Source: an uncultured Oleiphilus sp. (GTDB lineage: Bacteria; Pseudomonadota; Gammaproteobacteria; Pseudomonadales; Oleiphilaceae). From it: a stretch of DNA of 64,000 bases. The notes under the pieces were generated by a model, which saw only the letters and a list, made by a program, of their open reading frames with translations, made no database searches and was not told the DNA's origin. The translations under genes were made by a program, and so were the position numbers. The stretch spans positions 1 to 64,000 of the forward strand of contig CAJWAD010000007.1 in NCBI GenBank assembly GCA_913020245.1, given 5' to 3'. Positions 29,401 through 34,429 of the stretch are shown in pieces (position 1 is the first letter of the stretch; every line of letters begins with the position of its first letter).

Positions 29401-29829
29401 TTAACTGCGAGCGCAAAGCTCATCTGCCGCGAAAAAATATGCGATTTCTCGTGCCGCAGAATCAGCAGAATCTGAACCATGCACGGCATTTGCGTCGATA
29501 GAAGATGCAAAATCCGCACGAATTGTTCCCGCGTCAGCTTCTTGTGGATTCGTCGCACCCATTAAATCACGATTTTTTAGGATAGCACCTTCGCCTTCTA
29601 ATACTTGGACACACACAGGGCCCGAGGTCATGAAGGAAACTAAATCTGCGAAAAAAGGACGCTCTTTGTGCTCAGCATAAAAACCTTCAGCCTTCTCTTG
29701 AGAAAGTTGAACCATCTTCGCAGCAATGATTTGCAAACCATTTGACTCAAAACGGTCATATATTTTACCAACTACATTTTTTGCAACTGCATCTGGTTTA
29801 ACAATTGAAAGAGTGCGTTCTACCGCCAT
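29401..29829 (-). CDS. ndk: Nucleoside diphosphate kinase
   Basis: Ndk transfers the terminal phosphate between nucleoside triphosphates and diphosphates through a phospho-histidine and balances NTP pools. The 142-residue protein has the family start [15 protein letters not shown] and the catalytic His in [12 protein letters not shown] (near residue 117), with the usual RADFA stretch just before. Length is standard (143 in E. coli). It lies between iscS and rlmN; in relatives the iscU-fdx genes lie between iscS and ndk. Confidence 0.97.
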
Positions 29830-29897
29830 GATCTTGTCTCCGAATATCTGAATAGTGCGCCTAACTGACGACCGACGCTTGATAATTTTGCCGCGGC

Positions 29898-29903
29898 ATT
29901 ATA
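29898..29903 (-). promoter_or_regulatory. Probable -10 box of the ndk promoter
   Basis: A perfect TATAAT on the minus strand lies about 70 bases before the ndk start, within the 123-base iscS-ndk spacer. No strong -35 hexamer was found at 16-18 bases. It suggests that ndk is transcribed separately from iscRS. Confidence 0.35.
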
Positions 29904-29952
29904 TGCCCGATTAGACTAAATTACACGCAAATCGCTGTAAATTTTCCTGCTT

Positions 29953-31104
29953 TTACAACTTATCTAAAGCCGTGGTCAATCGCGTTAGGGCTTGATCGAC
30001 CTCTCGTTCCGTCGTAAAACGACCAAAAGAAAACCGCAAAGATCCAAGCGCCGCTTCATCGGTGACGCCCATCGCCTTTAAAACATGCGACGGAGCCATG
30101 TTTGCAGACGTACACGCTGAACCTGACGATATAGCCAAATCAGGCATCGCAGCGAGTAGTAACTGCCCGTCTTTATTTAAAAAACTCAAATTTATGATGC
30201 CCGGTACCGAATTTATTAGGTCACCATTCACCTTCACATCGTCACGTAATAGAAGAGGCCGTAGGAATCTCGTTTTCAGTTCCGTTAACTTTTCGTATTC
30301 GTGACGCTGAGACGCTTGTGCGATTGCGAATGCTTCACCTAATGCGACTAACTGATGGCTCGCCAACGTGCCCGGACGCATGCCTCGCTCATGGCCTCCC
30401 CCATGAATAAGCGGTTCCACGGAAAAATCAGATGTCCGACGCACAAACAATGCCCCAACGCCTTTTGGTCCATAAATTTTGTGTGCACAAACCGAGAGTA
30501 AATCTGCCTGAATGGTTCGCGCATCGAGTGGTATTTTTCCAGCGCTTTGTGCCGCATCCACATGAAATAGAGCGCCTTGCCGTTTAACAAGCTCCCCTAG
30601 CTCCATCACCGGATTGATAACGCCCGTTTCATTGTTTACATGCATAATAGAAACGAGCGCAGTGTCTTTTCGTATACTCTGTGACAACAAATCAACCGTC
30701 ACCACACCTGACGTATCAGGCCGAATATAGGATATCTCATAGCCCTCACTCTCGAGGGACTCAAAACAGTCTAAAACAGCTTTGTGCTCGGTAAGTGACG
30801 TCACAATATGGCGACGTTCGCCAAGCTCACCGCCCTGTTTTCTCAATCCTGCAAGCCCTCCTTTAATAGCAAGGTTGTTTGATTCAGTCGCGCCAGAAGT
30901 CCAAACAATTTCTCGTACGTCGGCGTTGATTAAACTGGCGACCTGCTTACGCGCAGACTCTACTGCTGCTTCCGCCTGCCAACCTAACCTGTGCGATCGC
31001 GAAGCTGGGTTGGCAAAACAACTATCCGGACCTAAAAAGCCGAGCATTTTTTCAACAACCCTTGGGTCAACAGGCGTCGTCGCCGCATAGTCAAGATAAA
31101 TCAT
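29953..31104 (-). CDS. iscS: Cysteine desulfurase IscS, lacking the C-terminal tail
   Basis: PLP enzyme that takes sulfur from cysteine for Fe-S clusters, tRNA thiolation and other uses. The 383-residue protein keeps the IscS body: IYLDYAATTPVDPRV start, TEHKAVLD, the PLP lysine in CAHKIYGPKG and the persulfide Cys in SSGSACTSANMAPSHVL. It ends at REVDQALTRLTTALDKL, about where E. coli IscS (404 residues) still has some 24 residues to go. That missing tail is part of the known IscU docking region. It follows iscR by 22 bases; no iscU, iscA, hscBA or fdx follows. See the finding on the reduced isc locus. Confidence 0.95.
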   Translation of the reverse strand: MIYLDYAATTPVDPRVVEKMLGFLGPDSCFANPASRSHRLGWQAEAAVESARKQVASLINADVREIVWTSGATESNNLAIKGGLAGLRKQGGELGERRHIVTSLTEHKAVLDCFESLESEGYEISYIRPDTSGVVTVDLLSQSIRKDTALVSIMHVNNETGVINPVMELGELVKRQGALFHVDAAQSAGKIPLDARTIQADLLSVCAHKIYGPKGVGALFVRRTSDFSVEPLIHGGGHERGMRPGTLASHQLVALGEAFAIAQASQRHEYEKLTELKTRFLRPLLLRDDVKVNGDLINSVPGIINLSFLNKDGQLLLAAMPDLAISSGSACTSANMAPSHVLKAMGVTDEAALGSLRFSFGRFTTEREVDQALTRLTTALDKL

Positions 31105-31126
31105 TAAGCCTTCTTAAAAAATCGGG

Positions 31127-31588
31127 TTAGCTTTCGGAGTAGATTAAACCGACAGTCATGTCTTGACGGTCAGCGGTTTCTCGGACCTCTCGTTTTGCCA
31201 TCAGGTCTTGCAAGGTAATACCATTTAAAAACGAATGTATCTGCGCACTTAAGTCAGACCAAAGATGATGCGTTAGGCACTTTTCACCTTGTTGACAATT
31301 ACCCTGTTCTTGGCATTTGGTTGAGTCTATCGATTCGTCGACCGCATCGACAATTGCGGCAATAGAAACTAGGCGGCCTTGCTCAGCCAAGGTATAACCA
31401 CCGCCCGGGCCCCTTATACTGTCGACAAGCGCGCGTCGCCTGAGCTTTGAGAATAACTGTTCAAGGTAAGAGAGCGAAATGCCTTGACGATCCGAAATAT
31501 CGGCTAATGCGACAGCGCCCTGCTCACAATGTAAAGCAAGGTCCAGCATTGCGGTAACCGCGTATCGTCCTTTAGTTGTTAATCGCAT
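31127..31588 (-). CDS. iscR: Fe-S cluster-sensing regulator IscR
   Basis: Rrf2-family repressor/activator that senses the cellular Fe-S state through a [2Fe-2S] cluster. The 153-residue protein has the winged-helix start [18 protein letters not shown]. Its cluster ligands are intact: three Cys spaced C-x5-C-x5-C ([13 protein letters not shown]), then LTHH, giving the unusual His ligand as in E. coli. A strong type-1 IscR site overlaps its own promoter, so cluster-dependent autoregulation is likely. It begins the short iscR-iscS operon. Confidence 0.97.
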
Positions 31589-32496: not shown

Positions 32497-33336
32497 TTAT
32501 TTTCCTATTTGATTGAGTGTCGCTTTAAGTATACCGCGCAAAATATTCACTTCCATCTTATCCAAGGCTGCACGTTGATAAAGCCTTCTCAGTCGTGGCA
32601 TCAACATACCGGGTTTTGCTGGATTGAGAAATCCAAGTTTAATTGCAGTCGCTTCAGTATGTTGCAACAGCCCCTCGACTTCTCCCACACTGGCAAGCTC
32701 ACCTTCCCACTCTTCAGCACCCGCACACTCTGTGCCGGACAACAAATCACTCTCTTCTTCTAACAACGCAGCCATACGCAACTCGTAGGCAATTACCTGA
32801 ACAGCCATTGCTAAGTTAAGTGAGGCGTATTCTGGGTTCGCAGGAATATTCACGTGATAATTACAACGCTGGAGTTCTTCGTTGGTCAAACCACTGGCCT
32901 CCTGACCGAACACCAAGGCAACTTTTCGCACAGGCTCTGCGAGCTGCTCTGTCCCGTTAACAACCAACGCTGACTGTGATGCAATCAACGATAATACCTT
33001 TGTCGCGCATTCTCGTGGATTAAACAGCGGCCAAGCCAAACTCCTCGACCGAGCGCTTGCGCCCACCACGAAGTGACAATCATTGATCGCCTCATCCATA
33101 GACCCAAAGACCTCGGCCGAATTCAAAATATTCTCAGCCCCAGAGGATCGGCGGGTTGCCTCATCACTCGGAAAGTTTTTAGGCTCGACGAGACGCAGTT
33201 TGCAAAGACCCATATTTTTCATCGCGCGCGCGACGGCGCCAATATTTCCTGAATGGGATGTTTTTATCAATACAACGGTAACCGAAACAGACAAAGCATT
33301 AATAAAGCTAATCGACATATCCTCAGTAGTTTTCAA
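32497..33336 (-). CDS. trmJ: tRNA (cytidine/uridine-2'-O-)-methyltransferase TrmJ
   Basis: SPOUT-family enzyme that 2'-O-methylates position 32 in the anticodon loop of several tRNAs. The 279-residue protein has the conserved start SVTVVLIKTSHSGNIGAVARAMKNMG. The SPOUT knot motifs ALVFGQEASGLTNEEL and NIPANPEYASLNLAMAVQVIAYE lie near residues 136-185. The helical C-terminal extension (about 200-279) is somewhat longer than in E. coli (246). It is divergent from suhB, the usual arrangement. Confidence 0.95.
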   Translation of the reverse strand: MKTTEDMSISFINALSVSVTVVLIKTSHSGNIGAVARAMKNMGLCKLRLVEPKNFPSDEATRRSSGAENILNSAEVFGSMDEAINDCHFVVGASARSRSLAWPLFNPRECATKVLSLIASQSALVVNGTEQLAEPVRKVALVFGQEASGLTNEELQRCNYHVNIPANPEYASLNLAMAVQVIAYELRMAALLEEESDLLSGTECAGAEEWEGELASVGEVEGLLQHTEATAIKLGFLNPAKPGMLMPRLRRLYQRAALDKMEVNILRGILKATLNQIGK

Positions 33337-33533: not shown

Positions 33534-33542
33534 TGCTATGAT
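33534..33542 (+). promoter_or_regulatory. Extended -10 promoter element for suhB
   Basis: TGC-TATGAT forms an extended -10 box about 32 bases before the ATG chosen for suhB. No good -35 box was found. The transcript would start about 20-25 bases before the start codon, which also argues against the longer in-frame start at 33538. Confidence 0.45.
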
Positions 33543-33573: not shown

Positions 33574-34374
33574 ATGCTACCTGTTATGAACATTGTCTTG
33601 AGAGCTGCGCGTCAGGCAAATGAATATATTGTCCTTACCGTTGATAAACACGAGCATAGTGTGGCCGATAATGATGCAAGTCAGCGCTTAGTCACGCACC
33701 TAGAATCAATCATTTTTGGTAATGTTATGGATGCGATTAAAAAAGGTTATCCAGAACACTATATCGCAGAGCCTGGCGAAATCGCACCCAACGATAAGGA
33801 CGACTGCTGGGAAATTGTTGGTTTTGATAAGCCAGCGCATGTCGTACGTAAATTGCCTGGCACAACCTATGCGATTATCCATCGAAGCAAGGACTTAATC
33901 TCCAATGCAATTGTGGTAAATCCGTTCACAGGCGAGGAATTCACGGCAACGCGCGGTCGTGGGGCGACACTCAATGCAAGACGAATGCGCACAAATAGCT
34001 GTAAGGCGTTAACCGAAGCTTATATTGCAACCGATGTACTCAATCTGATTGGTCAACACCCACAAAACCCATATTTCACTGAATTAACAAGCGCGCTTGC
34101 TAAAGATTGCGCAGAACTGCGAATAAATTCCAATAATACACTTAATCTAGCAATGGTTGCGTCAGGCCAAGTGGATGCGGCAATCTTGTGTGAAGCGGAG
34201 CCAGATAAGTTGAAAGCCGCGTTACTAATGTGTCAAGAGTCAGGTGTGTTAACCGGCAAATTGGACGGGGGTATGCTTGGCAAAAATCAAAGTACACTTA
34301 TTGCGGCTAACTCGAAACTTTTTAAGATTCTTGTGCAGCGTTATGGGACCTACGCGCCAAAGCTTGCCGAATAA
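33574..34374 (+). CDS. suhB: SuhB-like inositol-monophosphatase family protein, catalytically degenerate
   Basis: The start is placed at ATG 33574, behind GAGAGAG with six bases of spacing. It gives MLPVMNIVLRAARQANEYI, which aligns with the E. coli SuhB start, and 266 residues (E. coli 267). An in-frame ATG at 33538 overlaps the -10 box. The fold is kept (FTATRGRGATLN, TLNLAMVASGQVDAAI). But the phosphatase metal motif DPLDGTTN is replaced by VGFDKPAH, the IxEESGE segment is shortened to IAEPGE, and WDFAAG reads PDKLKA. Enzyme activity is therefore doubtful. SuhB is also a Nus factor for rRNA antitermination, a role reported not to need catalysis. Divergent from trmJ as usual. Confidence 0.88.
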   Translation: MLPVMNIVLRAARQANEYIVLTVDKHEHSVADNDASQRLVTHLESIIFGNVMDAIKKGYPEHYIAEPGEIAPNDKDDCWEIVGFDKPAHVVRKLPGTTYAIIHRSKDLISNAIVVNPFTGEEFTATRGRGATLNARRMRTNSCKALTEAYIATDVLNLIGQHPQNPYFTELTSALAKDCAELRINSNNTLNLAMVASGQVDAAILCEAEPDKLKAALLMCQESGVLTGKLDGGMLGKNQSTLIAANSKLFKILVQRYGTYAPKLAE

Positions 34375-34401: not shown

Positions 34402-34429
34402 AAAAAAAGCAGCTTTCGCTGCTTTTTTT
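34402..34429. terminator. Bidirectional intrinsic terminator between suhB and secF
   Basis: The stem AGCAGC-TTTC-GCTGCT is flanked by A-rich and T-rich tracts (seven A before, seven T after), allowing termination from both convergent genes. It lies 28 bases after the suhB stop and 23 bases before the secF stop. Confidence 0.9.

Follow-up and report, generated by a model that had tools for sequence, protein, structure and literature searches.

The stretch of DNA analysed here (the window, 64,000 nucleotides) carries a suhB gene with trmJ transcribed divergently upstream of it and secF on its other side. SuhB is a well-known moonlighting protein, being both a phosphatase and a Nus factor, with no evident need for its phosphatase. 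The features of the locus are as follows.

32497..33336, minus strand: trmJ, divergent neighbour upstream of suhB and synteny anchor
33574..34374, plus strand: suhB orthologue, catalytically degenerate, 266 aa
33673..33708, plus strand: remnant DASQRLVTHLES of the KGxxDxVTxxD motif, with K34, D38 and D44 replaced (from the alignment)
33766..33783, plus strand: shortened Glu motif, TEESGEL to AEPGEI, with metal ligand E67 lost
33808..33846, plus strand: former DPLDGTTN metal/phosphate motif, now W-EIVGFDKPAHVV (from the alignment to E. coli SuhB)
34195..34227, plus strand: former WDxAAG motif, now PDKLKAA, with metal ligand D212 replaced by Lys
34324..34335, plus strand: residues 251-254 (K..V) at the position of the E. 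coli K251/L254 contact with NusA AR2, the Lys being kept
34402..34429, strandless: probable bidirectional terminator in the suhB/secF gap, a short GC stem with flanking A/T tracts, aaaaaagcagctttcgctgcttttttt

The translation of the suhB ORF starts MLPVMNIVLRAARQ, and a second in-frame ATG is present at 33538. The earlier note had placed a full-length suhB at its standard position, divergent from trmJ, and both the length of the ORF and the location of trmJ agreed with this. The source MAG is 85.5% complete, and the same degenerate suhB was found in complete relatives. The hairpin between suhB and secF was read directly from the sequence, and was not called by a terminator consensus scan. Elsewhere in the window, iscR (31127-31588) and iscS (29953-31104) are immediately followed by ndk (29401-29829) and rlmN, in a span of 29401-31588. 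The genes iscU, iscA, hscB, hscA and fdx were absent beside iscR and iscS, and iscU was not found in the incomplete MAG that carries the window.

Orthology of the window SuhB

The curated SuhB model NF008027 matched residues 1 to 255 of the window SuhB with a score of 117 bits, and its cut-off of 332 bits was not reached. This cut-off is an unfair criterion here, because most catalytic SuhBs of the order also fall below it, and only 11 of the 294 genomes of the order reached it. The profile PF00459 was matched at 46 bits, above its gathering score of 27, through the second half of the profile only. Among solved structures, the closest sequence matches were to E. coli SuhB and to entries that carry the name Nus factor SuhB. 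Identity of the window SuhB to the E. coli protein was ∼28-30%, with a range of 24-31% across the family.

Of 175 SuhB loci, both degenerate and canonical, 171 have trmJ divergently upstream, and so does every degenerate locus of the order that was examined. In a tree that included paralogues, the degenerate, canonical and E. coli SuhBs formed one clade (SH-aLRT 97) and the intact inositol monophosphatase (IMPase) paralogues a separate one (97), while the main degenerate group was a clade of 38 rows (99). The window gene is a true SuhB orthologue.

The genome carrying the window (G000) holds three other genes of the IMPase fold with intact motifs, namely C33 (SuhB-like), C4 (CysQ) and C54 (CysQ-like). 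The earlier note had allowed for another, catalytically intact SuhB with the Nus role, and none was found: the C33 paralogue belongs to the separate clade, lies at a different locus and carries Glu where SuhB has K251. Intact paralogues in general have full catalytic motifs, whereas their residue 251 is mostly E, S, D, A or P, and an intact paralogue as the real SuhB was ruled out by the tree, the locus and this residue. One intact-type paralogue, L247 of genome G138, showed a single change, D84 to Ala (WIIAPIDGT). Among genomes of the degenerate families (f15 excluded), 70 of 78 had at least two SuhB-type matches, as against 80 of 192 among the rest, in a hand tally that ignores the kinship of the genomes. 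This suggests that the active site was more easily lost where a spare phosphatase was present; a spare paralogue was not required for the loss, because degenerate genomes with just one match also occur.

The former catalytic site and its distribution

We aligned the window SuhB to E. coli SuhB as the reference for motif comparison. The E. coli segment WVIDPLDGTTNFI is replaced by WEIVGFDKPAHVV, and within the former DPLDGTTN motif W81 is retained while D84, G88, T89 and N91 are gone. Similarly, KGSNDFVTNVD of E. coli has become DASQRLVTHLE, and RPWDFAAG has become EPDKLKAA. Among the ligands E67, D84, D87, T89 and D212, D87 is the sole survivor, and none of the motifs expected of an active inositol monophosphatase (EE, DPxDGT and WDxAAG) was found. 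The motif losses described in the earlier note (VGFDKPAH, a shortened Glu motif and PDKLKA) were all seen in this alignment, which strongly supports the view that the window SuhB is a pseudo-phosphatase, with the phosphate motif and both of two metal sites lost.

The AlphaFold model of the protein had a pLDDT of 91.4 and a pTM of 0.89, and the modelled fold is intact. A Foldseek search with this model placed P. aeruginosa SuhB at the top (TM 0.84); the next hits were structures of E. coli SuhB by itself, bound to NusA AR2 and within the rrnTAC.

Degeneration of SuhB was common to the whole family, taken as GTDB Oleiphilaceae on the basis of its named neighbours (uncultured Oleiphilaceae, Marinobacter and Hahella): all 37 genomes, from 16 genera, encode a degenerate form. 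Among the named loci, 72 of 80 were degenerate (Marinobacter, Hahella and Oleiphilaceae MAGs), and the 8 canonical ones came from Pseudomonas, Stutzerimonas and Zooshikella. Ligand counts were bimodal, with 5/5 in full-length canonical SuhBs and 0-3/5 in degenerate SuhBs. The presence of the degenerate form in 37/37 family genomes, along with this bimodality, confirmed that the shared degeneration is far beyond chance.

When the whole order was scanned with the curated model, several other families showed no strong match, and on reading of the genes degenerate SuhBs were seen in f6, f7, f26, f37, f38, f39, f15, part of f45 and one f40 genus. SuhB degeneration is present in at least six families of the order besides Oleiphilaceae. 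In a class-wide scan most families retained a strong SuhB match. Outside the order, degenerate SuhBs were found at trmJ or secF in three families (L276, L278 and L281 of genomes G342, G435 and G328), whose genome sizes are 1.1-1.8 Mb; these are probably further independent losses.

A species tree built on NusA and TrmJ united f1, f6, f7, f26, f38 and f39 as a clade (96). Constraining f37 to join the big degenerate clade was not rejected (p-AU 0.66), and f37 as a separate loss is unsupported. Because f45 and f40 contain both forms, the idea that the order lost the site just once was rejected. The fewest-changes count of losses was 4 on the unconstrained tree, and with f37 joined to the big clade we infer at least three independent losses inside the order. 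The earlier note had proposed an alignment of relatives' orthologues as a check. The loss is fixed in several families and has more than one origin, an extent that the earlier note had underestimated.

The f38 SuhBs L142, L143 and L144 are partly degenerate, with 39-42% identity to E. coli SuhB and D87 kept, and may be an intermediate stage of loss. In genome G139 (f40 g93), SuhB (L200) is degenerate and NusA is 38% identical to that of E. coli, compared to ∼60% in others; SuhB and NusA of this genome seem to have changed together.

Retained residues and Nus partners

To compare retention across the protein, we took positions with a conservation of 90% or more among canonical SuhBs and computed family-weighted medians. 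The canonical residue was retained with a median of 0.13 at active-site positions, compared to 0.63 at other invariant positions (p = 9e-6). Nearly all degenerate SuhBs have lost metal ligand E67 and also T89, which binds phosphate. In contrast, position 251 is Lys or Arg in 63/64 degenerate SuhBs, 30/31 canonical SuhBs and only 2/17 intact paralogues. Position 254, the other AR2 contact tested in E. coli, is preserved only by conservative changes, being Val in the window SuhB and L, V or I in most. P3, R13, R139, R141, K248 and K251 are retained in SuhBs and not in the paralogues, and H113 and G232 are likewise SuhB-specific and mostly retained in degenerate SuhBs. We predict that some of P3, R13, H113, R139, R141, G232 and K248 form Nus contacts.

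Among the proposed partners of SuhB, NusA with AR2 was found in all 57 genomes read, including that of the window. NusA AR2 also binds the RNAP alpha-CTD, and because of this the conservation of AR2 alone is no proof of SuhB binding. We sought boxA by reading 16S leaders, an exact 12-mer search being too strict, and found a boxA-like YTCTTTAA 160-198 nt before 16S in 9/9 operons read from the degenerate-SuhB genomes G021, G041, G072 and G073. A boxA-like sequence also precedes 16S in the canonical-SuhB genome G070.

In E. coli, SuhB binds NusA AR2 and the leader RNA of rrn; it allows NusB/E and S4 to be recruited and delays Rho-dependent termination (PMC6614801, PMC4807359). The K251A/L254A substitution changed the Kd for AR2 from 94 nM to 141 uM, a more than 1000-fold weaker binding (PMC6614801), and phosphatase activity is reported to be dispensable for the suhB phenotype (PMC6614801; PMC4807359).

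Interpretation and comparison with known systems

We consider it probable (about 0.8) that the window SuhB is a non-catalytic pseudo-phosphatase and a dedicated Nus factor, the Nus role being what we infer from sequence and model. Like its E. coli counterpart in the rrn antitermination complex, degenerate SuhB would dock on NusA AR2, help NusB/NusE and S4 join the complex, and chaperone nascent rRNA, with phosphatase chemistry not being needed. With catalysis dispensable, active-site positions would be free to drift separately in each lineage while interaction surfaces stay conserved. Details may differ, however: R184 is gone from every degenerate SuhB and is Ile in the window SuhB, and work by Wang et al. 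in 2007 reportedly found that E. coli SuhB R184I had lost both RNAP binding and complementation of a suhB deletion, so that the E. coli mode may not carry over unchanged. The natural separation of the two roles envisaged in the earlier note is supported by the loss of the active site alongside retention of K251 and the SuhB-specific N-terminal helix residues, by an intact NusA AR2, and by boxA in the leaders that could be read. This suggests that the Nus role alone has been repeatedly retained in a large, mostly marine bacterial group. That the active site was lost repeatedly and long ago, with the rest of the protein under strong selection, argues that this role alone explains retention of the gene here.

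An alternative that we regard as unlikely is that each lineage has separately turned the old pocket into a new surface for interaction or regulation within the antitermination complex, the loss of catalysis being part of a remodelling of that complex and not mere drift.

It is improbable that SuhB has left the Nus complex for another role, as a ligand sensor or through a new surface, with antitermination proceeding without SuhB or with an IMPase paralogue. R184 and E205 are gone from the degenerate SuhBs of every family. The loss of R184, the high divergence from E. coli SuhB and the intact IMPase paralogue in the same genome would fit a departure from the complex. However, K251 and other SuhB-specific residues are retained in degenerate SuhBs and lacking in the paralogues, which fall in a separate clade at other loci, and the retention of K251 recurs in independent losses.

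Persistence of the fold and the pocket scaffold in the model of the window SuhB, and the partial ligand sets that remain (D87 in the window, and both E67 and D87 in the f38 SuhBs of G250 and G073), could point to a protein that is still an enzyme, with catalytic residues that have migrated or a rebuilt site for a different substrate. The residues at the positions of E67, D84, D87, T89 and D212 are P-V-D-P-K in the window, P-S-H-P-E in a sister genus, R-E-H-Y-D in f37 and R-D-Q-Q-E in f26, and differ again in Marinobacter. Continued catalysis is made very improbable by this absence of a replacement constellation common to the lineages, and by the near-universal loss of E67 and T89. The metal and phosphate ligands have been lost in a different way in each family, in line with the pseudo-phosphatase status proposed in the earlier note.

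The median dN/dS of degenerate suhB was 0.035 (range 0.013-0.092; 21 pairs, nearly all Marinobacter), and that of the neighbouring trmJ was 0.030 (7 pairs); degenerate suhB is under strong purifying selection. The low NF008027 score might suggest that the gene is a pseudogene in decay or an artefact of assembly or sequencing. Both are ruled out by this dN/dS and by clade-wide conservation: the ORF is full length in every relative, finished genomes among them, synteny is conserved, and separate isolates have substitutions in common.

If the window SuhB is a dedicated Nus factor, as we favour, comparison of degenerate and canonical forms acts as a filter that splits catalytic from Nus-specific residues (P3, R13, R139, R141, K248 and K251). 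Annotation of degenerate suhB genes as inositol monophosphatase would mislead across a large marine group. No description of a SuhB or bacterial IMPase pseudoenzyme was found in the literature searched, which took in few subscription journals, and nothing relevant was found on SuhB in Marinobacter or Halomonas.

Degenerate SuhB is a new, widespread and convergent variant of a known protein. E. coli SuhB (PDB 6IB7/6IB8, 6TQN/6TQO) is orthologous to the window SuhB and has the same fold, and the two share the N-terminal helix MxPxxNIALRAAR and K251, the contact residue for NusA AR2. However, the E. coli Nus factor has an active inositol monophosphatase site, and the window SuhB lacks the metal and phosphate ligands and R184. 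P. aeruginosa SuhB (PDB 8WIP, and 8WDQ in complex with D-myo-inositol-1-phosphate), the top structural match to the window model, comes from the same order; other Pseudomonas SuhBs read have a gene neighbourhood like that of the window suhB, yet are fully catalytic in sequence. The intact paralogues (C33 of G000, and L244-L259) share the IMPase fold with the window SuhB, but have complete catalytic motifs, belong to a separate clade at other loci and lack the SuhB N-terminal signature. Pseudoenzymes in general have lost the catalytic site and kept a binding or scaffolding role (PMC5106787, PMC10211241).
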